This document shows positions 8,227-54,555 of a DNA stretch of 64,000 nucleotides, one piece after another. Positions within the stretch are counted from its first letter, which is position 1, and every line of letters starts with the position of its first letter. Source of the DNA: Filomicrobium insigne (GTDB lineage Bacteria > Pseudomonadota > Alphaproteobacteria > Rhizobiales > Hyphomicrobiaceae); NCBI RefSeq assembly GCF_900104305.1, contig NZ_FNJC01000001.1, forward strand, positions 858,543 through 922,542, read 5' to 3'. Under the pieces are notes generated by a model that ran no database searches, was not told the DNA's origin, and saw nothing but the letters and a program-made list of their open reading frames with translations. The position numbers and the translations under genes are program-made.

Positions 8227-8227
8227 C

Positions 8228-9497: not shown

Positions 9498-9656
9498 TCG
9501 CTTCAGGTCCCTGGCGCGTTCTCACGCATTGCTAGCCGCCATCCGCGGGATGGCGGTGTGGGTTCTGTTATCCGCCGAACCACTTTTGCTAGACTGATTT
9601 AAAAGCTGCCGACATGTTGGCTGCGCGTCATCGCATTCTCCGACCCAAGGCTTCTC

Positions 9657-10139
9657 ATGCGCCTGTCGATTGTTGCCATCGGCCGCCTCAAGGACGGGCC
9701 CGAACGTCAACTCATGGCGCGCTATGCCACGCTCCTCGACGGTCTTGGCCGCGGTTGCGGCATAGGTCCGTTGACAGTTACAGAGCTTCCCGAGGCGCGG
9801 GGCGGCGATGTTGCCAAGCGAACTTCTGACGAAGCGCAACGCCTTCTGAAAGCCGCGGGAGCGGCCGATGTGATCGTACTGCTCGATGAACGCGGGAAAG
9901 CGATATCGAGCCTGCAGATTGCACAATCGATTCGGGAAGATCGCGACGGGGGCGTTAAATCGATTGCATTCCTGATTGGCGGGGCTGATGGCCACGGTGA
10001 CGAAGCCAAAGCTGCCGCACATCGACGCTTATCTCTGTCGACGTTGACGCTTCCGCACGGACTGGCACGCATCGTACTTACAGAACAGCTTTATCGCGCC
10101 GCGAGCATTGTCGCCGGACACCCCTATCACCGCGAATAA
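9657..10139 (+). CDS. rlmH: 23S rRNA (pseudouridine1915-N3)-methyltransferase
   Basis: A 160-aa SPOUT-class methyltransferase. It begins MRLSIVAIGRLKDGPE, has VIVLLDERGKAISS, the SAM-binding knot around AFLIGGADGHGDE, and ends with the family's C-terminal LPHGLARIVLTEQLYRA plus HPYHRE. It uses SAM to methylate pseudouridine 1915 in helix 69 of 23S rRNA. It closes the obgE-to-rlmH housekeeping block and converges with the SDR gene only 10 bp away. Confidence 0.97.
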   Translation: MRLSIVAIGRLKDGPERQLMARYATLLDGLGRGCGIGPLTVTELPEARGGDVAKRTSDEAQRLLKAAGAADVIVLLDERGKAISSLQIAQSIREDRDGGVKSIAFLIGGADGHGDEAKAAAHRRLSLSTLTLPHGLARIVLTEQLYRAASIVAGHPYHRE

Positions 10140-10149
10140 CATTGTTTCG

Positions 10150-28555: not shown

Positions 28556-28721
28556 GTTTTGGGGCCGCACGGAAGGTTTGCGTCCGTTTTGAAGTGCGGC
28601 TTCATGTCCACAAGGGTAAAAGTGTTCGCCGCGCACGCATTGCCCGGCCTTTGGAACCTGTGTTACTTCCGATTTTATGGGAACACTCTTGCGACGTCTG
28701 GCAAGCTCTGGGATTTCGATT

Positions 28722-29744
28722 ATGCGCTATCTCATCGCGGCATTGGTGCCGTTCGTCAGTGCAGCGCTGATGAACGAGACGGCGACGGCCGGCCCTGCTC
28801 TGCTGTTTGAAGCCAGCACCGGCAAAATTCTCTATTCCGAGAGCATGGATAACCAGTGGCATCCGGCATCACTGACGAAGATTATGACGGCCTATCTCGT
28901 CTTCGAGGATCTCAAGGCTGGTAAAATCAAGCTCGACACTAAGATCACCTGTACCGAGCGCGCTTATCAGGAGCCTCCCAGCAAGGTTGGTCTTCCCGTT
29001 GGCGCTGAACTAACGATCGACACTGCGCTTAAATCTCTCATCGTCAAATCCGCCAATGACGTTGCGGTGATGCTCGCTGAAGAGCTCGGGCCTACGTACG
29101 ATCAATTCATCAATCGCATGAACACCACGGCCAAGCGGCTCGGCATGACGCGGACGCATTTCAACAATCCGAATGGACTGCCTGATGATGCGCAGGTCAC
29201 CACGGCGCGGGACTTAGCTAAGCTCTCGCGCGCCATTGTCACAGAGTTCCCGGAATATTCGGCTTATTGGTCGATGTCGGCCTTTCAGCTCGGCAAGCAA
29301 CGGCTCGGGTCGCACAACGGGCTGCTCAACACCTTTGAAGGCGCGGATGGCTTGAAGACCGGCTTCATCTGCGACTCCGGCTTCAATGTCGTGGCGAGTG
29401 CGACGCGTGACGGGCGCAAATTAATGGCCGTTGTTCTAGGTGAGCCTTCTGGAAAGGACCGCACGATCCGCGCGGCCAGTCTCCTGGAGCACGGCTTTCG
29501 CCACTACGGCTGGAAAGAACTTTTCAACACCACAAGCATCGACAATATGCCTATCGCCGCAGACGCGGAGGGGGTGCACAGCGTGCGTCACACCGTGACG
29601 GCCTGGACGTGTGGCAACCGTGCGCAGGCGAAGAAGCTTCGGGCTGCGAAGGTCAAAGTCAAGCAGGCCAGGGCGGCACAGAGGGCTAAACCCGTGCAGG
29701 CCTCCGTTCCTCCTCCCGCAAAAGCTGCATCCGTCGCCAATTGA
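28722..29744 (+). CDS. D-alanyl-D-alanine carboxypeptidase (S11 family, DacA/C-like)
   Basis: About 340 aa from the ATG at 28722, which gives a clean signal peptide (MRYLIAALVPFVSAALMNET, cleavage after TATA); an upstream ATG at 28677 is also possible. Penicillin-binding motifs are all present: SLTK (SxxK), SAND (SxN) and GLKTGF (KTG). It trims the terminal D-Ala of peptidoglycan stem peptides in the periplasm. A short C-terminal domain ends in a Lys/Ala/Arg-rich tail (AKKLRAAKVKVKQARAAQ) instead of the usual amphipathic anchor, which is unusual and may bind the wall or membrane electrostatically. Confidence 0.92.
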   Translation: MRYLIAALVPFVSAALMNETATAGPALLFEASTGKILYSESMDNQWHPASLTKIMTAYLVFEDLKAGKIKLDTKITCTERAYQEPPSKVGLPVGAELTIDTALKSLIVKSANDVAVMLAEELGPTYDQFINRMNTTAKRLGMTRTHFNNPNGLPDDAQVTTARDLAKLSRAIVTEFPEYSAYWSMSAFQLGKQRLGSHNGLLNTFEGADGLKTGFICDSGFNVVASATRDGRKLMAVVLGEPSGKDRTIRAASLLEHGFRHYGWKELFNTTSIDNMPIAADAEGVHSVRHTVTAWTCGNRAQAKKLRAAKVKVKQARAAQRAKPVQASVPPPAKAASVAN

Positions 29745-32284: not shown

Positions 32285-32944
32285 TCACATGGACGCGCCG
32301 ATGACCAACGTCCAGAAGGACTTGAATTCCGTGCGCGGATCTTGAACGAGGGCCACGCCTGCGTGGCGCGCATCGGCCAGCAGAAGATTCTTATTGTGGC
32401 CTGCGCTTTCCTTCCAGCCGCGTAGAACTTCGTCAAACGTCGACTGGCCCGTGCCGACATTCTCGGCCGCCAAGCTCGCCTTGTACCCTGCCCGCTTAAC
32501 GCGATCCCAGGGGTTCGAACCGTCGGAACCAAAGTGCGAAATGCGGTCCCACTTCGCGAGATCGCGCGCATGAGCCTTAGCAGCTGCTGTTAATTGTGCG
32601 TTGAGCTTCAGCGGCTTTAGGCCTTTGTCAGCGCGATACTGATTGATAAGCGCCAGCGCTTTTGCTGGATCCAGGCTCGTGTGGGAATAATCCCGGTCAG
32701 CAAGAGCGCCTTTCGGTGCCGTTTCATAGGAACCAGGCGGCATGCGGTCATCGTGTGCGGCGACCTGCGTGCCCGGCGCGGGACGGCCCGTCGCTGATTT
32801 GCCGCCAAGGCCTAAGGACGGCGACATGGGTGTGAGGGAGGAAGTGTCGCCGGTATCGGCGAAACTCGTAGACACGGCGCTAGGGCCGATGCCGCAGCTA
32901 GCGGTCAGCACGCTCACAAGAACCAGTACTGCTACTCGAACCAT
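32285..32944 (-). CDS. CAP (SCP/PR1)-domain lipoprotein
   Basis: A 219-aa protein. The N-terminus MVRVAVLVLVSVLTASCG is a lipoprotein signal with lipobox LTASC. A ~70-residue low-complexity linker follows, then a CAP domain: ALALINQYRADKGLKPLKLN, AAAKAHARDLAKWDRISHFG (the H of the cavity), AGYKASLAAENVGTGQST, GWKESAGHNKNLL (second H), and FWTLVIGASM at the end. Bacterial CAP proteins sit at the cell surface or in the periplasm, with roles in wall or lipid binding. A perfect CtrA-type site lies 59 bp upstream of its start, so it may be cell-cycle controlled. It converges with the flippase. Confidence 0.9.
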   Translation of the reverse strand: MVRVAVLVLVSVLTASCGIGPSAVSTSFADTGDTSSLTPMSPSLGLGGKSATGRPAPGTQVAAHDDRMPPGSYETAPKGALADRDYSHTSLDPAKALALINQYRADKGLKPLKLNAQLTAAAKAHARDLAKWDRISHFGSDGSNPWDRVKRAGYKASLAAENVGTGQSTFDEVLRGWKESAGHNKNLLLADARHAGVALVQDPRTEFKSFWTLVIGASM

Positions 32945-33497: not shown

Positions 33498-34628
33498 ATG
33501 ACAGCTGCCAGCAGCACATTTCGCAATAGCGACAAGAACGCACCGGCGGTGCCGTTCAAGCGCGCACTCATGCTCGTGCGGATTGCCTGCAGCGGTGGCG
33601 CAACCCGCGCGGAAATTATGCGCGACCTCGGGCCAATCTTCACACACAAGCTTTCTCCTGGCGAATGGCGGCAACTCGTTACAGACGCCAATGCTGAACT
33701 CCTCGCGCAAGGTCTTGCCGTGCAGTCGCGCGGGCGAATGACGGTAAGCTCGATCGGTCGCGAAGCCGCAGACACCTTCCTCGGGCGCAAAGGATCGACA
33801 TCGGGCTCGTGGCAGGACGTTCGCGACGGGCGGCTGGTCGCCAAAGCGCTTGGGCTCAATGACCTCGGTCCCAAGCGCATCAAGGAGTTGCAGCGACCAG
33901 ATGGCCTTCGTGCCTTGATTATCCAGAAGGCTTTCGGTTTGCCGCTCAATGGCTCTCAAACCGTAAGCAAACTGCGTGCTCAGTTGGCGGTCGTGGCGCT
34001 GGAACGCGCTTTCGGAAACAAGATCAAGACAGGGCTCGGCGCAGGCTCTGGTTTTTCGGCGCAAGCGGGGCGCATGCTCGCCGGTCAACTTTCGATACGT
34101 CCCCGCGACTTCGGCTCTGATGCCAAGCTCGTCGCGGCGCTGGCGGCAGAGGCCGTTGACGCGCGCCAAACCGACTTAGAATCACTGCGCGGCGCGATTT
34201 TACGCCGTCTCGCGCAGTCTGCCCTGAGCGAACGCGTAGACACCGACGTGCCCGCGCCGGTATTGCGACAGGCGGCAAATGATGCCGGATTGCCTGGCGC
34301 GGCGATGCCCGCAAACAGGCGCCCTGATCCGGCAAGCTTTGCGCGCCACGTTCAGATCGCAGCGCAGGGATGTGCAGAAGGCTGGTCGGGGAACCGTAAG
34401 GCCCTCATCATGCGGGTTTGGAACGCAATAGCCGCACAACATCCCGAGTGGGGGCTATCTGAAATCGAGTTTAAATGCATGCTTGGGGAAGCCCATCGGG
34501 CGGGGCACCTTGCTCTCGCCAGCGCGGACCTTAAAGACAAGCGCAATGCCGACGAGCTCAATGCCTCTGCCGTAACCTACAAAAATACGGTCTGGCATCT
34601 TGTCCGCGTCGAAGACGTGGACTCGTGA
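33498..34628 (+). CDS. Winged-helix-like protein coupled to the HerA-type ATPase, unknown function
   Basis: About 376 aa from the ATG at 33498 (MTAASSTFRNSDKNAP). The frame is open from 33168, but the extra 110 residues are basic and low in complexity, so the start is uncertain. The N-terminal part (FKRALMLVRIACSGGATRAE onward) reads as a helical, possibly winged-helix unit. The C-terminal ~95 residues (CAEGWSGNRKALIMRVWNAI, then FKCMLGEAHRAGHLALASAD and TYKNTVWHLVRVED) look like a second winged helix. I recall this motif pattern from DNA-related proteins next to large ATPases but cannot name a family. Its stop overlaps the ATPase start (GTGA), indicating a fixed partnership. No membrane segment is present. 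Confidence 0.65.
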   Translation: MTAASSTFRNSDKNAPAVPFKRALMLVRIACSGGATRAEIMRDLGPIFTHKLSPGEWRQLVTDANAELLAQGLAVQSRGRMTVSSIGREAADTFLGRKGSTSGSWQDVRDGRLVAKALGLNDLGPKRIKELQRPDGLRALIIQKAFGLPLNGSQTVSKLRAQLAVVALERAFGNKIKTGLGAGSGFSAQAGRMLAGQLSIRPRDFGSDAKLVAALAAEAVDARQTDLESLRGAILRRLAQSALSERVDTDVPAPVLRQAANDAGLPGAAMPANRRPDPASFARHVQIAAQGCAEGWSGNRKALIMRVWNAIAAQHPEWGLSEIEFKCMLGEAHRAGHLALASADLKDKRNADELNASAVTYKNTVWHLVRVEDVDS

Positions 34629-37600
34629 CAGCGACGCAAATTGGCCATTCAAGGAATCATTGTTTGATGCAGCAGCGGGCGCAAGAAGCTATCGCACCGG
34701 ACCGGATGGCCGAGGCTTTCGAGCATTCGATCACCTGGGAAGACGATATCTGGCGGGCTGACCCAGTCGATGTCGAACAGGTGCACGCGAAAGCGCGCAA
34801 AAAGTTCGCCGACGTCATCGAGGCTGTCACGAAGGACGGCACCACGCAGGCGCGTATCCTTTTGTTTCACGGACAATCTGGCGCCGGTAAAACGCACTTG
34901 ATCCGCGCGCTACGTACGAGCGCACACCGGCAACAGAAGGCGTACTTCGGCTACGCCCAGATGACGCCGGACGTGAGCAACTACGCCGACTACTTTCTGC
35001 GCCGGCTGATTCATTCACTGGAAAAGTCCTATAACCCGGATGAAAGTAGCGATAGCGGACTGACACGCCTGACGGATCGCTTGCTGGCGACATGTACGTC
35101 GTTGGCCCAAACCGACCTCACAGCGCTGCGCGAAAAAGATCTGGACAGCGCGGACCTTGCACGGCTCGTCCTGAAACTTTCTGACGAAATCGTTGCTTCA
35201 CCGGAGTTCAGTGCGGAAGAGCCGGACGTCAATATCGTTCGCGCATTGCTTTATTTGCAGCGACGTGACCCGCGCATCGATCAGCGCGTTCGCCAATATC
35301 TCTACGGCCGACAATTGACGCCCCTCGCTCACGAAGCGGTCGCGGCCCTTGACCCGAACGAGGGAGAGGGGCGCGCCTTCGAGATTATCGCGGCGCTCGG
35401 TCAGCTTATGAAGATCGTCGACGATGCGGCGCTCGTCTTCTGCATCGATCAGGTCGAAGATTTGATCAACTTCCCGGATCCGGAAGTGCGCTTCCAAAAG
35501 GCGATCGGCGATCTCATGCAGATCACGAACCGGGTCGGCAGCGCCATCATCATCATTTCATGTCTCGATGATTTCTATGACCGCGTGCGTGAGCCGTTGG
35601 CGCAATCCTTTAGGGATCGTATCGAGAAGTCTGGCCCTGTCGCGCTTTATGAAAGCCGCTCGGCGGAAGAAGCGCGACTCATCATCGCCAAGCGGCTCGA
35701 GCATCAAGCCGAAACCCAGGGGGGTGGCCTTTCGTTTCCAGATGCGAGCGCATTTTTTGGCCCCTCTTTCTTCGAGGAGTTCGCCGGGCTTTCGACGCGG
35801 CGTTTGTTAGAGCATGCACAGAATCGGTTGAGCGCTCAGACAAATGACGGGGACTCCGCGGAAGAAGTGGAGGAGCGTGAAACCACAAGCTTCATCTCCA
35901 CCCTTGCGGAAGCTCTCGGCTTTGGCTCCGGACCGGCCGAGCGCGCACCTCACCCATTTTCGAAGATCGACTATCGCGAGATCTGGGAGCGCTTCCAAAG
36001 CCAATCCGAAGCCGAGATCCCGTCCGACGATGGCGAGATGATGGATGCGATGGTCGCGGCGCTTCAATTGGCACGCGAAGAGTGGGGTGGCGCAATCACG
36101 CTTAATGTCGAGCGTGTCGAAGTGGCTGACGATCTCCCGGCCATTGATCTTTCGCTGCGGCATGCGTCAGGATTGGAATCTGAAACTCGGGTCTTCTTGT
36201 GCAACCGGCCGACGCAAGGTGGCGGCCTGAAGCGACAGCTCGACAAGGTGCTTGGCGCGATGCACGCGAAGACATGCTTCATGCTGCGCGCCTCGGACTT
36301 CCCTCCGAACAAGAAGAACCAAACTGCCCAGGCGTTCCGCAAATTCCGGGATGCGGGCGGCCGGTCGATTCTGGTTCCCATCCCCGAATGGGAGCGCATG
36401 ATCATGGTCCGCGAGTTTTATGCGCACCATCGCGCAGATCCTGGCTTCACGAAATGGTTTGAAAACGCGAAGCTCCTGTCAAATCTGATCGCAATCATTC
36501 AGCTTTTGCGTCTCGACCTTCTCGGTCGCCCGTTGCCAGCTACGACTGGCGGCGTGAAGGCGCGCACCAAGCCTAACCTGCGCGCGGTGACGTCAAATGA
36601 GCCCGCACTCATCGATGGCTATGAGAGTGTTACCGAGCCTGAGGCTCTTGCGCTCGCCGGTGGCAGCGAAGCACCTTGGGGGCCGGCCGAGAGCCTCGAC
36701 GCGCCGCCAGTCCCGGCCAATGATGACGATCTGCCGATGTCGCAGATTCTCGACGAAAACGGCTTTGAGACAGGAAGTATCTATTCAGGCCGCGAACTTA
36801 CGGCACAAGGCAGGCCGATTACACTTAATCTCAATGTGATGAAGCGCCACTCGGCGGTGCTCGGCGGTTCGGGCTCCGGTAAAACGACTCTCGCGCTCAC
36901 GCTGATCGAGCAGCTTCTGCTACGCGGCATCCCCGCTGTATTGATCGACCGGAAGGGTGACCTCTGTTCTTATGCGAACCCAGATGTCTGGCGCTCTTTG
37001 GTTGATGAATGCACAGAACGACAATCGGACCGTGAAAAGCTTGCGGATGCGATTGACGTCGCGGTTTACACACCGGGGCGTGCGTCTGGCCGGCCGATCT
37101 CGATCACGCTTCTCCCCAACGGGATCAGCGAACTTCCCGAACATGAGCAACAGTTGCTCGCGAACCTATCGTCCGCGGCACTTGGCGAGATGCTGCACCT
37201 GAAGAACTCGGCAACTCACCAGAAGCAGTCCGGGACGCTTTCGGTTGCACTTAAAATTCTCGGCAGCCGGTCCGCGAAAGAAGTGACGCTAAGCGATCTC
37301 ATTTCGCTGCTCGAAGAAGAAGATCCAGAATTAACGGACCTGACGCAGCGTATGGATCCGTCCGGCAAGATCCGCCGCGATCTCGTAGCTCAGCTCGATA
37401 GCCTCCGCCATCGCAACTCCTCGCTGTTTGACGGAGGCGGCGAGCCGATGAGTATGGAGTCCTTCCTTGGTCTGGGTGCGTTCGCGCGGCCTAACCGCAC
37501 GCGCCTGTCGATCATCTATACTGGCTTCCTGGGCGACAACGAGAACATCCTGTTCTGGGTTTCGCAGTTTTTGTCGGAAGCGCTACGTTTTTGCCAGCGC

Positions 37601-38062
37601 AACCCGAACGACGAACTGCAGGCTGTCGTGATGTTCGACGAAGCCGACCTGTATATCCCTGCCAACGCAAAGCCGGCGACCGCCGAGCCACTGCAGAGCC
37701 TTTTGAAACGCGCCCGTTCGGCCGGTCTCGGCTTGATGCTCGCAACTCAGTCACCGGGCGACCTTGACTACAAGAGCCGCGATCAGATCACGAGTTGGTT
37801 CATCGGTCGCGTTCGCGAAGATACGGCCCTTCGCAAACTCAAAGCCGCTTTCCAGAGCGAAAGTGGGCTTGATCCCGCTGCCGTTCTTCCTGGTCAAACG
37901 GTGGGCGAATTCCACCTCGTTCAGGAAGGGCTTGTACGCCCGATGAAGGCTCAACGATCGCTTATCACCGCCGAACAGGTCCCCTTCGACCGCATCGAAC
38001 AGCTGTCGCGGGAAACGAAGGGGTTGGACGAGGGGCAGCTGCGTCTATTCGACGTGAAGTAA
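34625..38062 (+). CDS. Large double ATPase: AAA-like domain plus HerA/VirB4-like motor
   Basis: A 1145-aa protein starting at the GTG that overlaps the upstream stop; an ATG at 34670 is an alternative. The first ATPase has Walker A GQSGAGKTH (residues ~83-91), a Walker B-like ALVFCIDQVEDL near 270, and a Ser/Arg-rich sensor region, resembling STAND or KAP-type AAA NTPases. A linker of ~350 residues follows. The second ATPase has VLGGSGSGKTTLALTLIEQ near 745, RGIPAVLIDRKGDLCSY, Walker B VVMFDEADLYI near 1000 and LATQSPGDLDYKSRDQI, the HerA/FtsK-like arrangement with LATQ. It ends in a short regulatory tail. Such motors pump DNA or load nucleases and appear in repair and anti-phage systems. The partner is the upstream winged-helix-like protein. 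Confidence 0.8.
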   Translation: MTATQIGHSRNHCLMQQRAQEAIAPDRMAEAFEHSITWEDDIWRADPVDVEQVHAKARKKFADVIEAVTKDGTTQARILLFHGQSGAGKTHLIRALRTSAHRQQKAYFGYAQMTPDVSNYADYFLRRLIHSLEKSYNPDESSDSGLTRLTDRLLATCTSLAQTDLTALREKDLDSADLARLVLKLSDEIVASPEFSAEEPDVNIVRALLYLQRRDPRIDQRVRQYLYGRQLTPLAHEAVAALDPNEGEGRAFEIIAALGQLMKIVDDAALVFCIDQVEDLINFPDPEVRFQKAIGDLMQITNRVGSAIIIISCLDDFYDRVREPLAQSFRDRIEKSGPVALYESRSAEEARLIIAKRLEHQAETQGGGLSFPDASAFFGPSFFEEFAGLSTRRLLEHAQNRLSAQTNDGDSAEEVEERETTSFISTLAEALGFGSGPAERAPHPFSKIDYREIWERFQSQSEAEIPSDDGEMMDAMVAALQLAREEWGGAITLNVERVEVADDLPAIDLSLRHASGLESETRVFLCNRPTQGGGLKRQLDKVLGAMHAKTCFMLRASDFPPNKKNQTAQAFRKFRDAGGRSILVPIPEWERMIMVREFYAHHRADPGFTKWFENAKLLSNLIAIIQLLRLDLLGRPLPATTGGVKARTKPNLRAVTSNEPALIDGYESVTEPEALALAGGSEAPWGPAESLDAPPVPANDDDLPMSQILDENGFETGSIYSGRELTAQGRPITLNLNVMKRHSAVLGGSGSGKTTLALTLIEQLLLRGIPAVLIDRKGDLCSYANPDVWRSLVDECTERQSDREKLADAIDVAVYTPGRASGRPISITLLPNGISELPEHEQQLLANLSSAALGEMLHLKNSATHQKQSGTLSVALKILGSRSAKEVTLSDLISLLEEEDPELTDLTQRMDPSGKIRRDLVAQLDSLRHRNSSLFDGGGEPMSMESFLGLGAFARPNRTRLSIIYTGFLGDNENILFWVSQFLSEALRFCQRNPNDELQAVVMFDEADLYIPANAKPATAEPLQSLLKRARSAGLGLMLATQSPGDLDYKSRDQITSWFIGRVREDTALRKLKAAFQSESGLDPAAVLPGQTVGEFHLVQEGLVRPMKAQRSLITAEQVPFDRIEQLSRETKGLDEGQLRLFDVK

Positions 38063-43080: not shown

Positions 43081-45834
43081 ATGGCGTTTTCAGATGACGC
43101 GCGGCGGCAGCAGGATTTGGCTCGTCCGCAGCATGGCCGCTTCAGTACGAGTGACGGCGACTGGGTCGACCCAGACGCTACGCCACGTGATTGGAAGAAA
43201 GTAATTCTGGTTATCGGGCTCGGCGCGTTGTCGTGGGTGGCGACGTATGTCGGCATGCTCGAACTCATTGAGTCGAACCTCGGTTCGCTGCCAATCGGGC
43301 ACCGCATTATCATTGGCTTTTCAGTCGCTATGCTGATGACAATGATCATCTGGCTGCTTGACCAGATTTTCAGCCCAATCAATACCTCAACCAAGATCGT
43401 CTACATTGCCGGCTACCTGTTCTTAAGCCTTATCTCGATCGGCTTCGGCTTTGGCTTCTACTGGAAAGTTTTGGAAAGTCGTCAGGAGTCGACGCGATCG
43501 GCAGAAGCTGCGGTCGCGCAAGTTCAAAACTCGTTGCACGCTGGCTCAACGCGCCTGGAACAACTCAACGCGACGCTCGTGCAATTGACCGAACTTTCCT
43601 CTGCGAAGGCGATCGAGGAGAGGGAGAAGGGCACGACGTGTCCCAATAGCCGCCCCGGCGACGGCCCCCGCCGTAAGCTGCGCGATGATGATGCGCAGCG
43701 TTTCCTCTTTGCATCTGAATTCGTCAAAGGCCGCATTGCGACGGTCAAAGCGGAGCTATCGTCATTGGATGGCGATCTCGCGAAGGTGGTGAAAGGCGAT
43801 CCCTCAACGATCGATGCCGAGACAGGAACGCGCAATGATTTTCTAAACGGCCTCAACCGGAGGCTCGATATGACCGTGACGGGTTTCAACGCGTTCCGGG
43901 GCGATCCTCAGCTGCGCCAAATCCGTGCTGATCTCGATGACCGAGCCGGAAAGACGATATTTCCAACGTCGAGTGGAGGCACCTTCACTTGCCCCGATCC
44001 ACAGCTACAGACAGCATTGCGTGGTGTGGTTCGTGCCATCGATCAGTTGCCGCAACTTACCAAGCCGCGCATTGCGGCCGTTGAAGGTTCGGAGGCCACC
44101 ATCGAAGCGTTTCGCCGTCTGACCGCAACGCTTCAAGGCGCACTCGTTCTTGACCTGCCGCCCTCCGCTGAAGAGCTACGGGAGTTGCAGAAGAAAGCGG
44201 TGCAATCCGTTTCGGAAGCGAGCACCAACGGGCAAGCCCCACCTGGCGCTCGCATTTCGGCAGGCCTTTCGCCGCGTGATTACATTCCGCTCGCAATCGC
44301 TGCGTTCGTCGACCTCTGCCTCTTGCTCGTCTCCATGGGGCGTCCGATGAACCGGCTCAATAATCTGGTACCGATCATGCGTGAGGCCGAGCGCGGTCCC
44401 ATGATCAAGATCTTGTCGCGCTTCAATGAGATCCATCGCGACCCAGAAATCCGGCAGAACTTCGAGGTCTTCCGGCATGTCGTGTTTGATATGTATGGCG
44501 CGTACTATGTCGCCGTGCCGCTTGACGCACCTTACAAACCACATGAGCGCAACGGCGCAAATGGGTTCGGCTTCGGTGCGAGCGATGCGCAGGACCTCCA
44601 GCATGAAGCTCACTTGCTGGCAAACCTGTTTTCCGGTTTCGAGCAGCAGCGCATTTTCTCGCGCGTCTACAATCCGTTTTTGTCGACCCGTGTGATCCAG
44701 CGCAAGCTTTGGCGGCAAGGCAGCAAATTTGCCGGTTGTCATGCATTTCGCGTCTATCGTTTCCGGGACGGTGCCTGGTCGGACATGATCCTTCAGGCGG
44801 TCATGGGCGCTGCGCGGCGCGTGGAAGAGGAGAAGCGTCGCAGACAGAGATTGGAAGACGAAGCCGCAGTACAGCGCGGTCCGGAATTAGCGATGGGCAC
44901 CTCTGAGCAAAAAGCTGAAAACGGCCGAACACGTGAGCCGCAAGACAGGAAGGACCGCTGGCCGCATCTCGATATACCGGCGCCGGATCTGCGCGATAGC
45001 GGCGCTGAACGCGCGAAGGCGTATGCTATTTCCGGTCGACGTAAGACGCGCAAGGCCAATGGCCATTTCAACGGCCACCGTATTCCAGTCGCCTCTGCCG
45101 AACTGAATGGCAGTGCCACCGAATACGCGAACGGTTCAGGTCTGGCGGCAAACGGGAACGGCCACGCGGCAAAGATTGCGAACGGGGCCGCACGTAGCGG
45201 CGCGCGCATCAACGCCGATGCAGAGCGCGAAGCCACTTTGCGTTCTGCCTTCGGCCGCTATGCCGCAACCGCCGCCTTTGAACTCAACAACAATGACGCG
45301 TTCTATGCGGACCTGGAAAATACCCTCGACGAACAACCCGAAACTCATTCGAACAAACAGGATGTCAGGGTAGAGACCGAGACCATCCGCACCACTGCTG
45401 ACGACGAGGCCATGGAAAAGCGAAACGCTGCCGATGTTCTTCCTTTCAAACCACCGGCGTCCGCGTCCAACGACACCATCAAACAAGCCGCCACTTCGCT
45501 CGTGGAGAAAGTCCGTGAGGTCATGCCGTCGGAGGCGCGCGAGACAACCGTTACGATGACGCGTGAAACGGCGACGTTCAGCATCCCCGTAACCGAAGCG
45601 CGTTTGCCGATTATGTCCGCCGAGCGCGTTCCGCACGATTCGGTCGAAACTGAAATCTCTGAAGAGACGGTTGTTTCGCTCGTCCCACCTCCGCTGTCTT
45701 CATCCGCGCAACAAATTGTAACGGATGTAGAGGTCGTGGAGGACGCAAACACTGAGACTCAAGACGATGATGAAGCCCGACTTGTCACGCTCGTCAGCCG
45801 ACTTCGGCCCGCTCCGGGGGGAGAAGTGCTTTGA
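43081..45834 (+). CDS. Large four-helix membrane protein with long cytoplasmic tail, unknown
   Basis: A 917-aa protein. Three TM helices lie at about residues 40-62, 75-95 and 105-128. A ~265-residue extracytoplasmic region with coiled-coil-like heptads and two Cys motifs (TTCPNSRPG and GTFTCPDPQ) may form a disulfide. A fourth TM is at about 397-420, followed by a ~490-residue tail. The tail begins with a compact domain (LSRFNEIHRDPEIRQNFEVF, FSRVYNPFLSTRVIQRKLW) and ends in a disordered Asn/Gly/Ala-rich stretch (NGSGLAANGNGHAAKIANG) and an acidic terminus. I recognise no family. The topology suits an envelope-spanning scaffold or signalling protein, and the neighbouring PBP hints at the cell wall. 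Confidence 0.7.
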   Translation: MAFSDDARRQQDLARPQHGRFSTSDGDWVDPDATPRDWKKVILVIGLGALSWVATYVGMLELIESNLGSLPIGHRIIIGFSVAMLMTMIIWLLDQIFSPINTSTKIVYIAGYLFLSLISIGFGFGFYWKVLESRQESTRSAEAAVAQVQNSLHAGSTRLEQLNATLVQLTELSSAKAIEEREKGTTCPNSRPGDGPRRKLRDDDAQRFLFASEFVKGRIATVKAELSSLDGDLAKVVKGDPSTIDAETGTRNDFLNGLNRRLDMTVTGFNAFRGDPQLRQIRADLDDRAGKTIFPTSSGGTFTCPDPQLQTALRGVVRAIDQLPQLTKPRIAAVEGSEATIEAFRRLTATLQGALVLDLPPSAEELRELQKKAVQSVSEASTNGQAPPGARISAGLSPRDYIPLAIAAFVDLCLLLVSMGRPMNRLNNLVPIMREAERGPMIKILSRFNEIHRDPEIRQNFEVFRHVVFDMYGAYYVAVPLDAPYKPHERNGANGFGFGASDAQDLQHEAHLLANLFSGFEQQRIFSRVYNPFLSTRVIQRKLWRQGSKFAGCHAFRVYRFRDGAWSDMILQAVMGAARRVEEEKRRRQRLEDEAAVQRGPELAMGTSEQKAENGRTREPQDRKDRWPHLDIPAPDLRDSGAERAKAYAISGRRKTRKANGHFNGHRIPVASAELNGSATEYANGSGLAANGNGHAAKIANGAARSGARINADAEREATLRSAFGRYAATAAFELNNNDAFYADLENTLDEQPETHSNKQDVRVETETIRTTADDEAMEKRNAADVLPFKPPASASNDTIKQAATSLVEKVREVMPSEARETTVTMTRETATFSIPVTEARLPIMSAERVPHDSVETEISEETVVSLVPPPLSSSAQQIVTDVEVVEDANTETQDDDEARLVTLVSRLRPAPGGEVL

Positions 45835-46603: not shown

Positions 46604-47120
46604 CCTTAGTGAGACAGTGGATTGCCGCTGCAGCGCAACGCTGCGGTGGCGAGGCCGCCGGAGAAGGGATGGAACCACGCACGTGGCGCCGAGCGCCGAT
46701 TCATGGCGTGATCTTTCTTGCGCAGATGCGCACGTCCCGTTGGACCCTGGCGTTTAAATAGGCCGGATCAAGGTCTTTGGCGCATCTGCGTCCAGCCCAC
46801 GTCCGCCCGGCGGCCTCTCTATTTTCCAGAAACAAGCCCTCCCTTCTCACGGAAGGGCAGCGCCGCATTTTTACGCCAGCGTAGTCGCGGTATCTTGCCA
46901 ATATTCCTCGCGTGTTCTTGCGGTCGATCCACGTCGCGCATCACAATGGCACCGCTTGGAAAATTCACGCAAATCCCGGCAACACCGGATAAGTCAGTTT
47001 ACTGTCAAGCTTCGGCCATGCGGGTCTGATGGGCTTCAACTTCGCACGGCTTGGTGATCTAGTCGTGCAGGATCGCAAATTGTGATTGTGCTCCCTGGCT
47101 TTATTTCGAGGTTGCCCCCC
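46604..47120. other. Intergenic region with an 11-bp inverted repeat
   Basis: 517 bp without a convincing gene. CGCAGATGCGC (46721-46731) is matched by its reverse complement GCGCATCTGCG (46780-46790) with a 48-nt gap, which could fold an RNA or bind a dimeric regulator. A CCCTT/AAGGG hairpin lies near 46838-46857. A 66-codon minus-strand frame across it resembles nothing known. Confidence 0.35.
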
Positions 47121-50100
47121 ATGCACTCATTTTCGCCGAGGCGTTTTGTCGAGGCCGCGTTGCTGCTAGCGACGGTTACGGCCGCATTCCTAATCACCTT
47201 TCTTCCAGCTGCCGCTCAGGAGGCGAAGTTCGCTCATCAGCAGTTGGAGGAGGATGCGAAGCGCTACGAGTCCTATCTCGTAGAAAACTGGGCGGACAGA
47301 AACGCGAATATCAAAACACTGTTGGCGAAGGGCGGACAGGACCTCGGAAAGGATCCACGCGCAGCATCTCGCTCGTTTGCCGCAGCGGCCGGCAGCGCGC
47401 GAAGCAACAGCGCAGCTTGGCTTGGACTCGCGCGTTCATTAATCGCCATCAATCCCAATCAGCTCAATGGTTCGGAGCGCTACGATATTCCGGTCAACGC
47501 CTCCGGCGCCGCATATCGCGCCTATCAACATGCCAGCGGAAATGCGCAGAAGGCGGAAGCGCTGAGCGTACTTGCTGACACTTTGCAACGCCGCGAATTC
47601 TGGCGGCCGGCACTGGAGGCCTTGAAGGTCAGTCTCGCGCTTGCGGACAACCCAAAGGTGCGCGCAACCTATGACAAGCTGCACAGCGCGCACGGCTTCC
47701 GCATGACGGACTACTCGACACAGACGGAAACGAATTCGCCTCGTCTCTGCCTGCAGTTTTCCGAAAGCCTAGCGCGTGGTCCGGTCGAGTTCGCAGACTT
47801 TATTTCTGTCAACGGCAAGGACGCACAGGCCGTGACGCCGGAAGGCAGCCAATTGTGCATCGAGGGGCTTGCACACGGTCAGCGCTACGAAGTGCAGCTG
47901 CGTGCGGGGCTTCCCTCAGAGATTGGAGAGACGCTCGAAAAGACGATCGAAATCGCAGCGTATCTGCCGGATCGCAAACCGACTGTGCGCTTCACGGGAC
48001 GTGCCTATGTTCTCCCGGCGCGCGGTCAGCAGGGTATCCCCGTTGTCTCCGTCAACACCGACACCGTTCAGGTGGAGGTTTTCCGATTCGGCGACCGTGC
48101 TCTGGCTGGCGCTGTGATCAACGGCGACCTGCAAAGGCAGCTTTCGAGCTGGGATCTCGAAACGATCAAGTCGCAATCGGGCGAAAGCGTTTACACCGGG
48201 AATCTGACCGTCAAGCGCGACCTCAACAAGGAAGTTACAACGGCCTTCCCGGTCAATGAAGCCATCGGCACGCTTAAGCCCGGTGCCTATGTCATGACGG
48301 CACAGGCGGCAACGCCAACCTCGGACTATCAGAATACTATCGCCACGCAGTGGTTCATCGTGTCCGACCTCGGACTGACGGCGTTTTCAGGCCGCGATGG
48401 AGTGCATGCCTTTGTTCGCTCACTGAGCGAGGCACACGCGGTCAGAGAAGTCGAAGTCCGGTTGATCGCGCGCAACAACGAGGTGCTCGCCACCGCCAAG
48501 ACCGATGCGAATGGCTATGTGAAGTTCGACGGCGCGCTTGCACGCGGAGAAGGCGGCCTGCAGCCGGCTATCCTGGTCGCGCAGAATGGACTGTCCGACT
48601 ATGCCTTCCTCGATATGACGACGGCGGCATTTGATCTTTCCGATCGCGGCGTCAAGGGTCGGGAGCCATCCGGCCCCATCGACGCATTCGTCTATACGGA
48701 ACGTGGTGTCTACCGCCCCGGTGAAGACGTACACGTCGCTGCGCTTGTGCGAGACGACGAGGGCAAATCTTCCAACCTTCCTGTCACGCTGATCGTGACG
48801 CGGCCGGACGGTGTCGAACATCAGAGGCTCACGCTCGTCGATGAAGGTTCCGGCGGTCGCGCTGCATTGCTTCCGTTGTCGCACGGCGCGATGACGGGTA
48901 CTTGGCGTGCGCAAGTCCATGTCGACCCGAAGGCCGCCCCGATCGCGCAGGCCGCGTTCCTGGTCGAAGATTTCGTCCCTGAACGACTGGACATGACGCT
49001 CAGTCCAAAGTCCGCTTCGATCGGCGTCAACGATCCGGCAACGATTGCAGTCACCGGACGGTACCTCTATGGGCCGCCTGCTGCGGGTCTCAAAATGGAA
49101 GGCGATGTCATTGTCAGAACCTCCAGCTCAGGCGTGCCGGGCTATTCCGGATATCGCTTTGGCCAGTCTGATGAAGAGATTACGCCGGTACGCGAGTCCC
49201 TGAACGAAATTGCCACGACCTCGCAGAAGGGCGAAGCCGACCTCAGCATTTCCCTGCCGAAGGTCGTGAAGACGGCAAAACCTCTGGAAGCCAAGGTCCT
49301 CGTGCGGCTTGCCGAACCCGGCGGACGCACGATCGAACGGCAGGTTACGTTGCCGGTCGATCTCGGATTGGAGCGCATCGGCATCAAGCCGTTGTTTAAC
49401 GGAGACCGGCTCGGAGAAAGCGAAACGGCGCAATTTGACGTGCTCATGCTTGGAACCGACGGCAAGCCTGAAGCTGCTTCGGGGCTCGTATGGCAACTCA
49501 ATAAGCTGGAAACGAACTGGCAATGGTATAGCCGCGGCGGTTATTGGACGTTCGAACCCGTGACATTGACGCGCAAAGTCGCGGACGGAAAACTTGAAGT
49601 GGCTGCCGAAAAGCCGAGCCGGCTTGAGATGCCGGTCAAGTACGGCCGCTATGTCCTCGAAGTTCAATCCGCCGGTTCGGCCGAGGTCGTAAGTTCCGTC
49701 GCCTTCACGGCCGGCTGGTATTCCGGAAGCGACCGGCCTGACAGTCCTGAACAGCTCGACATCGCACTGGACAAGGAAACCTATCAACCCGGCGATACAG
49801 CAAAGCTCAGGATCGCGGCAAAGCAGGGCGGCAAGGCCTTGGTCGCAGTCCTCGGCAACCGTCTTTATGCGATGCAGGAAGTTGATGTGCCCACAGGCGG
49901 CGGCGATGTCAGCATACCGGTTGGCGACAACTGGGGGCCCGGCGCCTACGTCACGGCCATTCTTTACCGGCCGATGGACGAAGCTCTCAAGCGCATGCCA
50001 CAGCGGTCTCTTGGGTTGCAGTGGCTTGCTCTGGATCAGACCAAGCGCACGCTCAATATCGCGCTCAACGCTCCGGACAAGATTGAATCCGGCGCGACAC

Positions 50101-52412
50101 TGCGTGTCCCCATTAAGGTGTCAGGATTTTCCGCGGGAGAGACCGCGCGCCTGACTTTGGCGGCTGTCGACGTCGGCATCCTCAATCTCACGAACTACAA
50201 AGCGCCTAAGCCGCAAACGTGGTTCTATGCACAAACGCAGCTTGGCCACGACATCCGGGACTACTATGGGCGGTTGATCGACGGCATGCGGGCAGAGCGT
50301 GGCACGCTGCGTTCGGGCGGCGATGCGGATGCCGGCATGCAGATGCAGGGCAGTCCCCCGGTTGAAGCCACTGTCGCAAAGTTCTCCGGCATTGTGGAAG
50401 TCTCCAGCGATGGTTCAGCGGAAGTAGAATTCGACCTTCCTGAGTTCAACGGCAGCGTTCGTCTCATGGCCGTCGCGTGGAGTGACAGCAGTGTCGGTTC
50501 GGCGACGATGGATGTAATTGTACGTGATCCAGTGGCCCTGACCGTGGCAGGCCCGCGTTTCTTGACACTCGGCGACAAGGCCCAGCTCGCTCTGGACGTC
50601 CACAACGTCGAGGGACCGGAGGCCACCTATGTCGTAAACGTTGCGCATGAGGTGACGGCCGGTGCCCAGGTTTCTCTTATTCAACGCGATGTGGCGTTGA
50701 AGACCGAGGAACGGCGAAGCGAAAGGTTGTCGCTTGAGCCAAAGTCCGTGGGACTCCAGACCTACCATGTGAACATCACAGGGCCCGACGGTATCGACGT
50801 GGCCAGAACTCTGACGTTCGACGTTAAGGCCCCTGCAGGTGATATCAAACGGACTACGATCGCCAGCATCAAGGCCAACGGCGGAAGCCTTTCTCTATCG
50901 GCCGACTTGCTACACGATCTCATTCCCGATCGTAGCGAGATCAACCTCTCGGTTGGCCCCGCGGCCCGGTTCGACGTCCCCGGCCTTTTGGCACAGCTTG
51001 ACCGGTATCCCTATGGGTGCGCCGAGCAAACGGTGAGCCGCGCATTGCCGCTGGTCTATGCCAGTGCAGTGGCCCAGCGCAGCGGCGTGAAGATCGAAGC
51101 AGATCTTTCCGACCGAGTGCAGAAGGCTATCGATCGCGTGTTTGAAATGCAGGACGCTTCAGGCGCGTTCGGCGCATGGGGACCGGGCAACACGAACATG
51201 TGGCTGACGAGCTTCGTCACAGACTTCCTGACGCGCGCCAAGGAGGCCGGACACAAAGTCCGCGAACCTGGCTTCACACAGGCCCTCGATCGTCTCCAAA
51301 ACTTCATCGCCTATGCGCAAGACTTTGAATCAGGCGGTGAAGATCGTGCCTATGCGCTCTACGTGCTGGCGCGGAACGCCCGCGCACCTATCGGTGAACT
51401 GCGCTACTACGTCGATACGCGCCTCGACCGGTTCTCAACACCGCTCGCCAAAGCGCAGCTCGGCGCAGCCCTCGCGATGATGGGGGACAAGGAACGCAGC
51501 GGCATTGCCTTTAAAGCGGCGTATGCAGACCTAACCGGGTCGGAGGCGCAGGTGATTTCACTGCGCGATGACTATGGCTCGCGGTTGCGGGATGGGGCAG
51601 CACTCGTCGCGCTGTCTGCGGAAACAGGTATGGAGAATGAGCGTATCCCACACCTGATCGACGTCGTCGCGTCGGGCTACACCAACAGGCGGTATACCTC
51701 GACACAAGAACAGGCTTGGTTGCTTCTTGCGGTGAAAGCCCTCGGCGACGAGTCCGCTTCGGCTTCGCTGACGATCGGGGGCACTGCTCACAGCGGTCCT
51801 CTTGCACGCAAGCTGACGGCGGAAGAACTCAACACGGGATCTTTCAAGGTCACAAACGAGAGCGACGCTGATCTTGATGCCGTGATCTCGGTCGTCGGCG
51901 CATCGCTCAACGCGGAACCGGCCGTCAGCAACGGGTTCTCCATCGAACGCAGCTACTTCAAACTTGACGGAACCGCAGTCGATCTTGCCAGCGCCAACGG
52001 TGGTAAAGCATCCATCGCTCAGAATGAGCGTCTGGTCGCGGTGGTGAAGATGACGGCCGACAATGCCGGCGGACGAGTTCTTGTTGTCGATCGCCTGCCA
52101 GCAGGTTTCGAGGTCGAGAACCCCCGGCTTGTCGCGTCGGGTAATCTTTCGAGCCTGAGCTGGTTGAAAAGCGACGTCTCGCCAGAACACACCGAGTTCC
52201 GGGATGACCGCGTCGTCGCCGCCTTTAACCTCTTCGGACAGAGCCGCAGCGATCTGAAAGCTGCTGGGACGACAGCTACAGTTGCCTACATCGTCCGCGC
52301 TGTGACGCCGGGAGAGTTCGTTCACCCGGCCGCAACCGTCGAGGACATGTACGTCCCTGAACGGCATGCGCGGACGGAAGCAGGCACCTTGACCGTGACC
52401 TCAAAGAACTAA
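47121..52412 (+). CDS. Bacterial alpha-2-macroglobulin family protein with thioester motif
   Basis: About 1763 aa from the ATG at 47121, which starts a proper signal peptide (MHSFSPRRFVEAALLLATVT, cleavage near AAAQ) and has GAGG upstream; a GTG at 47082 is less likely. An N-terminal extension of ~200 residues is followed by MG domains (for example FVYTERGVYRPGEDVHVAAL, the MG3-like block) and the thioester motif YGCAEQ near residue 1298, with the helical thioester domain and a final receptor-like domain. Bacterial A2Ms trap proteases in the periplasm and protect the wall-synthesis machinery. The next gene encodes PbpC, the classic partner, 22 bp away. Whether it lacks a lipobox, and so is soluble, is judged only by eye. 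Confidence 0.95.
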   Translation: MHSFSPRRFVEAALLLATVTAAFLITFLPAAAQEAKFAHQQLEEDAKRYESYLVENWADRNANIKTLLAKGGQDLGKDPRAASRSFAAAAGSARSNSAAWLGLARSLIAINPNQLNGSERYDIPVNASGAAYRAYQHASGNAQKAEALSVLADTLQRREFWRPALEALKVSLALADNPKVRATYDKLHSAHGFRMTDYSTQTETNSPRLCLQFSESLARGPVEFADFISVNGKDAQAVTPEGSQLCIEGLAHGQRYEVQLRAGLPSEIGETLEKTIEIAAYLPDRKPTVRFTGRAYVLPARGQQGIPVVSVNTDTVQVEVFRFGDRALAGAVINGDLQRQLSSWDLETIKSQSGESVYTGNLTVKRDLNKEVTTAFPVNEAIGTLKPGAYVMTAQAATPTSDYQNTIATQWFIVSDLGLTAFSGRDGVHAFVRSLSEAHAVREVEVRLIARNNEVLATAKTDANGYVKFDGALARGEGGLQPAILVAQNGLSDYAFLDMTTAAFDLSDRGVKGREPSGPIDAFVYTERGVYRPGEDVHVAALVRDDEGKSSNLPVTLIVTRPDGVEHQRLTLVDEGSGGRAALLPLSHGAMTGTWRAQVHVDPKAAPIAQAAFLVEDFVPERLDMTLSPKSASIGVNDPATIAVTGRYLYGPPAAGLKMEGDVIVRTSSSGVPGYSGYRFGQSDEEITPVRESLNEIATTSQKGEADLSISLPKVVKTAKPLEAKVLVRLAEPGGRTIERQVTLPVDLGLERIGIKPLFNGDRLGESETAQFDVLMLGTDGKPEAASGLVWQLNKLETNWQWYSRGGYWTFEPVTLTRKVADGKLEVAAEKPSRLEMPVKYGRYVLEVQSAGSAEVVSSVAFTAGWYSGSDRPDSPEQLDIALDKETYQPGDTAKLRIAAKQGGKALVAVLGNRLYAMQEVDVPTGGGDVSIPVGDNWGPGAYVTAILYRPMDEALKRMPQRSLGLQWLALDQTKRTLNIALNAPDKIESGATLRVPIKVSGFSAGETARLTLAAVDVGILNLTNYKAPKPQTWFYAQTQLGHDIRDYYGRLIDGMRAERGTLRSGGDADAGMQMQGSPPVEATVAKFSGIVEVSSDGSAEVEFDLPEFNGSVRLMAVAWSDSSVGSATMDVIVRDPVALTVAGPRFLTLGDKAQLALDVHNVEGPEATYVVNVAHEVTAGAQVSLIQRDVALKTEERRSERLSLEPKSVGLQTYHVNITGPDGIDVARTLTFDVKAPAGDIKRTTIASIKANGGSLSLSADLLHDLIPDRSEINLSVGPAARFDVPGLLAQLDRYPYGCAEQTVSRALPLVYASAVAQRSGVKIEADLSDRVQKAIDRVFEMQDASGAFGAWGPGNTNMWLTSFVTDFLTRAKEAGHKVREPGFTQALDRLQNFIAYAQDFESGGEDRAYALYVLARNARAPIGELRYYVDTRLDRFSTPLAKAQLGAALAMMGDKERSGIAFKAAYADLTGSEAQVISLRDDYGSRLRDGAALVALSAETGMENERIPHLIDVVASGYTNRRYTSTQEQAWLLLAVKALGDESASASLTIGGTAHSGPLARKLTAEELNTGSFKVTNESDADLDAVISVVGASLNAEPAVSNGFSIERSYFKLDGTAVDLASANGGKASIAQNERLVAVVKMTADNAGGRVLVVDRLPAGFEVENPRLVASGNLSSLSWLKSDVSPEHTEFRDDRVVAAFNLFGQSRSDLKAAGTTATVAYIVRAVTPGEFVHPAATVEDMYVPERHARTEAGTLTVTSKN

Positions 52413-52434
52413 GTGAGAGCCTGAGGATACGTCT

Positions 52435-54555
52435 ATGAGCCGGGCTCGACCCTTCCTAAAGATCGCGGCAGCAGGAGCTGCCGCGATCATCCTTGCCGGA
52501 CTTTCCGCCGTGGCGGCATTCGAGATCGCGATTGCTCGGCTCGATCCACCGCCGCTTCAGGTTGCCGATCAACTCTCGGTCACGGTGCTTGACCGGGAAG
52601 ATCGACTGCTTCGCGCGTTCACCACTGAAGATCACCGCTGGCGTCTCCCCATCACACATACCCAGGTGGACCAGCGTTATCTGAAACTTCTGTTCGCCTT
52701 CGAGGACCGTCGGTTCTGGACGCATGGCGGTGTCGATATGTATGCCGCCGGGCGGGCTGCGTTACAGCTCGTCCACAATCAACGGATTGTGTCCGGGGCT
52801 TCAACGCTCACCATGCAAGTCGCGCGACTTCTCGACCGACGTCATGAACGCACCGCCGCGGGAAAGTTCTCGCAAATCCTGCGCGCGGTTCAGCTAGAGC
52901 GTCAGCTCAGCAAAGGGCAAATCCTCGACATCTATCTAAGGTTGGCCCCCTTCGGCGGAAACATCGAGGGTGTGCGTGCGGCTTCCCTCGCCTATTTCGG
53001 ACGTGAGCCAAATCGCCTGTCGCTGTCGCAAGCTGCGCTGCTCGTGGCGCTTCCACAATCGCCGGAGACGCGACGACCTGACCGGAACTGGAAGGCGGCA
53101 CGCATTGCACGAAACCGGGTGCTTCAACGCGGCGTCGCGGCTGGCGTCATTTCGCGTGCGGAAGCCGAATACGCCATGGCCGATGTGGTGCCGCACTTGC
53201 GTCGTTCGTTTCCTATGCTGGCGCCGCATCTGGCTGAAGCCGAACTGGTCGCTCATCCGGATCGCACCGTTCATCATCTGACCATTGACCGAAACGTCCA
53301 GGCCGCTCTTCAGACGTTGGCCACGCAGCACGCAGGCGCGCTCGGCCCTAAACTTTCAACGGCCGTGATTGCCGTAGATCACACAACGGGTGAGATCCTC
53401 GCACAGGTCGGGTCAGCGAGTTACTTCGACGGTGAGCGATTTGGTGCGGTCGACATGACGCGCGCTATCCGATCACCAGGATCGACACTGAAGCCGCTCG
53501 TTTACGGTCTCGGGTTCGAGGCCGGACTCGCGCATCCTGAGACGTTGATTGAGGACCGTCCCACGCGGTTCGGTTCCTACCGGCCAGAAAACTTCGACGA
53601 TTCATACCATGGCACCGTCACGATTCGGGAAGCGCTAGGGCACTCCCTCAACGTACCGGCTGTCGCGATGCTCGATGCTGTGGGACCTGATCGGCTCGTC
53701 GGCCGTCTTAAAAGGTTCGGACTCACCCCGGTTCTGCCTGATGACGCGCACCCAAGCCTCGCTATTGCCCTCGGCGGCCTCGGACTGACGCTTGAGGATC
53801 TGGCGGGTCTTTATACGGGGTTGGCCAACGGTGGCCGTTACGTCGCGCTCACCCATTTGCGCGGAGACGCACAACAGCGCCACCTCACCGGCGCCGTCGC
53901 AGATGATGGAAAGCGCCGCCTCATGTCGCCAGTGGCGGCATGGTATGTGGGGGACATCCTAAAAGATGCGCCGCCGCCGGCCAATACGCGCGGCGGACGT
54001 ATCGCCTATAAAACGGGGACGTCTTATGGCTACCGTGACGCGTTGGCGATTGGCTATGACGGCCGCTATGTCATCGCGGTCTGGGTTGGACGACCTGATG
54101 CGACCTCAACGCCGGGCTTGACCGGACGCACAGCCGCGGCACCCATCCTTTTTGATGCCTTCTCACGTCTGGAAGAACAGCGCGTGCCGCTCGCTCCAGC
54201 ACCTGCCGGCGTACTCAGGGTTTCGGGCGCCGAGTTGCCGCCTCCCCTAAAGCGTTTCGGTCGCGAAGCGACAGAAGCCAGCTCAGGGGGATTCCTGCAG
54301 CAGCCCGTCGTTATCGCGTTTCCACCCGACCGCTCCGAACTCGAAGTCGGAGCAGGTCAACAGCCCGCTGAGCCTCTACTTCTGAAAGCGGAGGGCGGCC
54401 AATTGCCGCTCACCTGGCTTGTGGATGGACGCCCTCTGGATTCTTCGCCACACCGGCGCGAGGTCCTGTGGCAGCCTAATGGTCCTGGTTTCGCAAAGGT
54501 TTCCGTGATTGACGCGGAGGGTCGTGTCGATCGTGTCACGGTCCGCTTACAATAA
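52435..54555 (+). CDS. pbpC: Penicillin-binding protein 1C
   Basis: A 706-aa protein with an N-terminal signal anchor (AGAAAIILAGLSAVAAFEIA). Transglycosylase domain: FAFEDRRFWTHGGVDMYAAG (ED and HxGxD box) and SGASTLTMQVARLL. Transpeptidase domain: SPGSTLKPLVYG (SxxK), SLNVPA (SxN) and KTGTSYGYRDA. The C-terminal ~90 residues are the PBP1C-specific domain (PLLLKAEGGQLPLTWLVDG). It repairs or extends peptidoglycan with the A2M protein upstream; the two genes are a conserved pair in proteobacteria. Confidence 0.96.
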   Translation: MSRARPFLKIAAAGAAAIILAGLSAVAAFEIAIARLDPPPLQVADQLSVTVLDREDRLLRAFTTEDHRWRLPITHTQVDQRYLKLLFAFEDRRFWTHGGVDMYAAGRAALQLVHNQRIVSGASTLTMQVARLLDRRHERTAAGKFSQILRAVQLERQLSKGQILDIYLRLAPFGGNIEGVRAASLAYFGREPNRLSLSQAALLVALPQSPETRRPDRNWKAARIARNRVLQRGVAAGVISRAEAEYAMADVVPHLRRSFPMLAPHLAEAELVAHPDRTVHHLTIDRNVQAALQTLATQHAGALGPKLSTAVIAVDHTTGEILAQVGSASYFDGERFGAVDMTRAIRSPGSTLKPLVYGLGFEAGLAHPETLIEDRPTRFGSYRPENFDDSYHGTVTIREALGHSLNVPAVAMLDAVGPDRLVGRLKRFGLTPVLPDDAHPSLAIALGGLGLTLEDLAGLYTGLANGGRYVALTHLRGDAQQRHLTGAVADDGKRRLMSPVAAWYVGDILKDAPPPANTRGGRIAYKTGTSYGYRDALAIGYDGRYVIAVWVGRPDATSTPGLTGRTAAAPILFDAFSRLEEQRVPLAPAPAGVLRVSGAELPPPLKRFGREATEASSGGFLQQPVVIAFPPDRSELEVGAGQQPAEPLLLKAEGGQLPLTWLVDGRPLDSSPHRREVLWQPNGPGFAKVSVIDAEGRVDRVTVRLQ

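Follow-up and report, generated by a model that had tools for sequence, protein, structure and literature searches.

A core, nuclease-free relative of Orc/CDC6–HerA systems as a candidate chromosomal DNA translocase in the Hyphomicrobium–Filomicrobium lineage

Two adjacent genes of Filomicrobium insigne, here called A and B, encode what we propose, with modest confidence, to be a nuclease-free, vertically inherited relative of Orc/CDC6–HerA systems that acts as a chromosomal double-stranded DNA translocase, a role that we infer. The genes lie in the window, by which we mean the whole 64,000-nucleotide stretch of DNA analyzed, within a 3.85-Mb assembly of 10 contigs. Both open frames were confirmed at 33498–38062, where the first-pass annotation had placed a winged-helix protein coupled to a double ATPase. 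The features discussed below are as follows.

28677–29744, plus strand: D-Ala-D-Ala carboxypeptidase gene (Peptidase_S11; Pfam), a frequent upstream neighbor
32285–32944, minus strand: CAP-family gene (Pfam CAP), divergent upstream neighbor of A
33498–34628, plus strand: gene A, 376 aa, winged-helix protein (ORF; AlphaFold2 model; ortholog alignment A1 of 37)
33555–33782, plus strand: predicted N-terminal winged helix of A, residues 20–95 (AlphaFold2 model)
33810–34229, plus strand: predicted helical middle of A, residues 105–244 (AlphaFold2 model)
34329–34610, plus strand: predicted C-terminal winged-helix-like domain of A, residues 278–371 (AlphaFold2 model; many invariant columns in A1)
34625–38062, plus strand: gene B, 1145 aa from the GTG at 34625 (ORF, alignments)
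34691–35845, plus strand: Orc/STAND-type AAA+ ATPase domain of B, residues 23–407 (Pfam AAA_22, AAA_16 and nSTAND1; model)
34871–34894, plus strand: first Walker A of B, residues 83–90, GQSGAGKT (alignment)
35987–36520, plus strand: middle domain of B, residues 455–632 (model secondary structure; alignment)
36773–38014, plus strand: HerA motor domain of B, residues 717–1130 (Pfam DUF87 and HerA_C; Foldseek)
36863–36886, plus strand: second Walker A of B, residues 747–754, GGSGSGKT (alignment)
37625–37648, plus strand: HerA Walker B region of B, residues 1001–1008 (D1005 and E1006 invariant)

Both P-loop ATPase sites of B are intact. In the first, G83, G86, G88, K89 and T90 are the same in all 36 aligned B proteins; in the HerA site, so are G748–T754, D1005 and E1006. 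Pfam places AAA_22 and AAA_16 within residues 69–187 and DUF87 (E = 3.8e-13) and HerA_C within residues 722–1055, all above cut-off, with nSTAND1 also matching the AAA+ domain above cut-off, and Foldseek sets the motor beside solved HerA structures (best E = 3.8e-12, 4d2i). The Orc/CDC6 label for the AAA+ domain is a weak one, as the Pfam ORC-CDC6-like model matches a distant cousin (L156) at E = 0.004, below cut-off. The middle domain may have an endonuclease-like fold, again on weak, topological grounds: residues 469–583 of the model follow the alpha-beta-beta-beta-alpha-beta order of restriction endonucleases, no PD-(D/E)XK motif is visible by eye in the alignment, and by sequence the domain has no match in Pfam and none in the PDB below E = 0.06. 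The B model has a mean pLDDT of 78.5, and its disordered stretch, residues 639–706, lies between the middle and HerA domains. Codon position 3 differs between the window and the same-genus loci L042, L043 and L046 at 52–65% of codons and position 2 at only 11–23%, which places the A/B signal beyond chance.

Protein A is modeled with a mean pLDDT of 89.7 as a helical middle flanked by a winged helix at the N-terminus and a winged-helix-like domain at the C-terminus. Its PDB matches are mostly winged-helix regulators, none with E ≤ 0.001, and nothing in Pfam, PADLOC or NCBIfam matches it at E = 1. We dropped the idea that A is kleisin-like, as matches to JetABC and MukF are very weak (E = 0.16–0.31). 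The first-pass description of a two-gene DNA-handling module, with two distinct Walker A sites, an AAA-plus-HerA double ATPase and a partner with DNA-binding-like ends, is thus borne out, the last by prediction. The GTGA overlap to which it also pointed is literally present at 34625; however, relatives of B start near an ATG equivalent to 34667, which is preceded by AAGGAA, and the true start is probably this ATG, giving 1131 aa, rather than the GTG. The overlap is not a conserved feature, because the A-to-B gap, measured with starts picked by script, varies across 82 loci between −14 and 326 bases, with a median of 32.5.

How widely is the pair distributed? In the 103 genomes of the window’s family, its own included, B is found in 100 (E ≤ 1e-20) and A in 98. 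The three genomes in which B was not found (G012, G089 and G092) are all in 400 or more contigs; because G089 is the sole genome of its genus examined, that genus may truly lack B. A was not found in these three or in G018 and G099. Within the order, 31 of 297 sampled genomes match B: 29 with a core-type protein, comprising 13 from the window’s own family and 16 from nine others (f2, f9, f16, f18, f25, f32, f33, f39 and f46), and two with a distant one (G131 of f30 and G149 of f48). At class level, the window’s own genome is the one match among 385. Absences at the order and class levels carry less weight than those in the family, because these searches covered samples and scored only the best two first-look candidates of each genome. 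When genomes are ranked by similarity of RpoB, which does not amount to a tree, at least 11 of the 16 core carriers from other families are listed, none below row 34; no RpoB match was obtained for G119, and G110, G133, G147 and G309 are not among the matches listed. The same ranking interleaves family f31 with core-positive genomes of other families, and B was found in 0 of 11 sampled f31 genomes, though f31 is close by RpoB. Contig titles of the nearest named relatives read Filomicrobium and Hyphomicrobium, with some MAG contigs titled Devosia, Methyloligella, Rhodomicrobium and others. A phage origin of B was set aside, as neither B nor its distant cousins match phage records; a search of viral contigs for close relatives of B likewise found none.

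The best reading of this distribution is that the A/B pair is vertically inherited and nearly fixed in the chromosome of the window’s family, whose named members are Hyphomicrobium and Filomicrobium. Sequence conservation can be set beside it. Across 31 core-type relatives, median identity to the window is 86% in the HerA domain, 66% in the AAA+ domain and 65% in the middle domain, falling to 33% and 28% in the linkers; in four aligned cousins, HerA identity is 27–29%. RpoB identity is 86–89% in the 11 same-family genomes among the matches listed, so the HerA motor and RNA polymerase are about equally well conserved.

The surroundings of the pair are also conserved, in part. We examined 94 loci, 80 from titled contigs and 14 cut from genomes, the latter including two cousins and one unrelated HerA locus; 92 loci, the window among them, are of the core type, with L103 and L164 being one contig counted twice. 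A adjoins B on the same strand in all 82 core loci with sequence upstream of B, and the other 10 of the 92 end within 24 bases of B. Of 66 loci with sufficient sequence, 57 have an antiparallel CAP gene upstream of A at a distance of no more than 2.5 kb, and the other nine give no CAP match. Among loci with 6 kb or more, a carboxypeptidase gene is found upstream of A in 34 of 58, with no match in the other 24, and a MATE-type gene is found in 22 of 58. Downstream, MoeA and/or transglycosylase genes occur in 38 of 65 such loci. Other families (L151, L152, L153, L154 and L164) show the same succession of carboxypeptidase, CAP, A and B. The genes next to the pair, CAP and MoeA, and its wider neighbors are envelope and cofactor genes, and none of nine flanking proteins of the window has a PADLOC match. 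The first-pass annotation had raised the possibility of a new accessory anti-phage system and asked whether the genes sit in variable islands or in the core genome. They are core, which is the genomic half of what the first-pass annotation had said would refute its proposal. This distribution, with the partial synteny and the flanking proteins that PADLOC does not match, led us to reject an accessory defense island, for which patchy presence in variable loci would be expected.

Six distant relatives of B occur in cassettes with a DUF559-type nuclease gene. Full-length distant homologs occur in plasmid-collection records of Methylobacterium aquaticum, Nonomuraea and Tsukamurella and in the order genomes G131 and G149. 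The Nonomuraea record, at 11.85 Mb, is perhaps a chromosome, and the Tsukamurella record, which carries ribosomal protein genes, is perhaps chromosomal. In all five of these cousins (L149, L150, L156, L157 and L181), a DUF559 nuclease gene and a gene for a winged-helix protein of about 230 aa precede the B-like gene. The DUF559 match is above cut-off in four cousins, one of which (L157) has a partial nuclease sequence at the edge of its stretch, and DUF559 is annotated in L181. The N-terminal wing of A appears related to that of the 230-aa protein (hhalign of sliced domains, E = 5.2e-5); comparison of the whole proteins gives E = 0.001 with a probability of 21%, and the C-terminal wings have no significant similarity (E = 0.41). 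A sixth cousin, L148, lies at 6518–9278 of its stretch on the conjugative Xanthobacter plasmid pXAUT01, with A-like and B-like genes and a weak DUF559 ORF, below cut-off. Its A-like protein of 378 aa is related to A along most of its length (97% probability, E = 8.9e-11 over 336 columns in one hhalign comparison), and its B-like gene, 455 aa, ends immediately ahead of transposase genes. Cousins are uncommon, and part of them lie on plasmids: a search of 289 class genomes with cousin B gave the window’s own core B as its sole match, with 0 of 288 others. At 5299–10267 of the Tsukamurella stretch (L181), a cassette of DUF559, hypothetical and DUF87 genes lies between rplN and rpsQ and next to VapBC genes; three-gene cassettes of this type, also present in L149, L150, L156 and L157, are a candidate for an unnamed defense cassette.

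No comparable nuclease accompanies the core pair. A profile built from the nucleases of the five cousins, which it matches by construction, finds the sixth, L148, independently (E = 3.9e-5), and has no hit with E ≤ 1 in any of the 92 core loci or in the control stretch L163. The nuclease gene would be expected upstream of A, and only 66 core loci besides the window extend at least 2.5 kb in that direction. With at most 34 candidates scored per genome, the nuclease model matches 24 of 60 family genomes, only in C-terminal stretches (model positions 244–361 of 364), and has no match in the window’s own genome; we therefore rejected a partner nuclease encoded elsewhere.

The closest published parallel is a branch of HerA/FtsK systems proposed to act against invaders, in which, according to the passages of PMC10853773 that describe it, a HerA/FtsK motor in mobile neighborhoods is joined with an Orc/CDC6 ATPase, a wHTH protein and two REases, one inactive and one active. 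The core pair shares with these capture systems, as so described, a HerA/FtsK motor (DUF87 and Foldseek) and a wHTH protein (A, by its predicted model and N-wing kinship). Its Orc/STAND-type AAA+ domain may correspond to their Orc/CDC6 ATPase, and its middle domain, of REase-like topology with no visible active site, may correspond to their inactive REase. The DUF559-bearing cousins share the nuclease as well and, as far as tested against those passages, fit the class. In contrast, an active REase was not found in the 92 core loci, and the near-fixed, partly syntenic chromosomal locus differs from the mobile or sporadic neighborhoods described there; lacking both active REase and mobile context, the core pair is better filed as a variant than as a plain member. 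The first-pass view that the module matches no nameable system therefore holds for the core pair in these two respects but not for its overall architecture. No word starting with Hyphomicrobi, Rhizobiales or alphaproteobacteri occurs in the main text of PMC10853773, and no paper in the literature collection searched combines DUF559 and DUF87.

The pair was also compared with other known systems. SIR2–HerA and DUF4297–HerA anti-phage complexes have a HerA-type motor, but Pfam shows that the neighbors of A/B are neither SIR2 nor DUF4297, and B differs in its two ATPases per chain and its core distribution. MADS systems carry mad1–mad7 partners beside mad8, and mad8 (PDLC04140) is the best PADLOC hit of B (E = 2.4e-23). 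This profile, however, has hits in 381 of the 385 class genomes and in all 14 control genomes, so the hit indicates only a FtsK/HerA-like ATPase; MADS membership was rejected on this basis and because neither A nor the nine flanking proteins have a PADLOC match. The searches of defense and HerA models suggested by the first-pass annotation identify B through HerA_C and DUF87 but leave A without a match, and they illustrate that a best hit to a defense profile can mean merely a HerA/FtsK-like ATPase. DndH of DndFGH has a HerA/FtsK domain and accounts for a weak PADLOC match of B, but averages 1700 residues and has other domains, according to the relevant passage of PMC10853773; neither DndF nor DndG matches A or the nine flanking proteins scanned. 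BREX proteins give weak matches to the AAA+ domain, through Pfam BrxC_BrxD (E = 1.8e-4, below cut-off) and NCBIfam BrxD (E = 1.5e-5, far below cut-off), but B, unlike BrxC/BrxD, has a HerA motor in the same chain, and no PglZ or other BREX gene was found among the flanking proteins scanned.

These features suggest how a chromosomal translocase of this kind could work. A could bind DNA through its winged-helix ends and bring B to it, forming an A–B complex. With ATP, the Orc-like AAA+ domain of B would assemble on or around DNA, the middle domain and disordered tether would position the HerA domain, and the HerA domain would form a hexameric pump for double-stranded DNA. Given that the genes are core and come without the cutting subunit of the cousins, this pump most likely acts on the cell’s own chromosome, and it would clear, move or resolve DNA rather than restrict invaders. 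A housekeeping job is probable, and an optional anti-phage one is not, as the pair is present in nearly every family genome in a similar neighborhood. Of the three possibilities that the first-pass annotation had listed, DNA translocation or segregation is thus the likeliest. More boldly, it is possible, and we suggest it only tentatively, that an immune translocase was disarmed by DUF559 loss and became an essential, lineage-specific chromosome translocase of Hyphomicrobium and Filomicrobium, a second motor beside FtsK. If true, bacteria would offer here a clear example of a translocase that once restricted invaders and now belongs to the core chromosome machinery, while armed cousins persist in distant bacteria as well as on at least one conjugative plasmid. 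More generally, A/B is a concrete candidate, open to genetic tests, for chromosome handling in a lineage with budding, hyphal bacteria.

The main rival, which we consider unlikely but well short of negligible, is a core-encoded, always-on immunity against plasmids or phages, in which B would intercept incoming DNA and pump or strip it, displacement alone or a host nuclease would finish the job, and the defense role of the relatives would have been kept while the system became fixed in the lineage. The rarity of the cousins, one on a conjugative plasmid and one beside a VapBC pair, is consistent with such a role, but defense genes usually turn over, whereas the pair is nearly fixed in the family and its HerA motor is conserved about as well as RpoB. 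The published relatives of the architecture do point toward defense, being proposed as anti-invader in the passages of PMC10853773 noted above; against this stand the nuclease that was not found in the 92 core loci and the envelope and cofactor genes around the pair, nine of whose products were tested and gave no PADLOC match.

Improbable, in our view, is a DNA-repair role of the HerA–NurA type, in which a nuclease encoded elsewhere would join B for end processing. B has the HerA motor fold, and HerA–NurA structures are among its best Foldseek matches, but a NurA gene does not lie beside B, B has extra AAA+ and middle domains, and the pair includes a separate winged-helix partner, A, which has no family match and, with B, is flanked by CAP and MoeA. 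That the nuclease model, with at most 34 candidates scored per genome, returned only C-terminal stretches, in 24 of 60 family genomes and not in the window’s, also argues against it. In addition, all 18 genomes tested have AddA (12 of them with core B, 1 with a cousin and 5 without), so that no resection gap is evident in genomes with or without B, and we rejected A/B as a replacement for AddAB.

Finally, it is very improbable that the pair serves as a motor driving the chromosome along the hypha to the bud in the hyphal budding bacteria Hyphomicrobium and Filomicrobium. These are classical budding genera by morphology, and a MAG contig roughly titled Rhodomicrobium (L103) also carries the pair. 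The idea is attractive because the motor for stalk crossing in Hyphomonas neptunium is unknown: passages of PMC6650430 state that DNA crosses the stalk by an unknown mechanism and suggest an AAA+ translocase. However, the phototrophic family f30 (8 sampled), guessed from its gene content and size to be true Rhodomicrobium, lacks the core form, which weakens bud transport as a general role even though L103 carries the pair; a contig titled Methyloligella (L098) carries it as well, and B occurs in only 1 of 385 class genomes. PufL is present in 6 of 6 tested f30 genomes but also in the carrier G140, and so does not single out one genus.

Farther downstream in the window, 43081–45834 encodes a 917-aa protein with no significant family match, which lies beside the transglycosylase gene in many related loci. 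At 47082–54555, a bacterial alpha-2-macroglobulin gene is followed by a gene for a PBP1C-type penicillin-binding protein, and this gene pair is likewise found downstream in several related loci.
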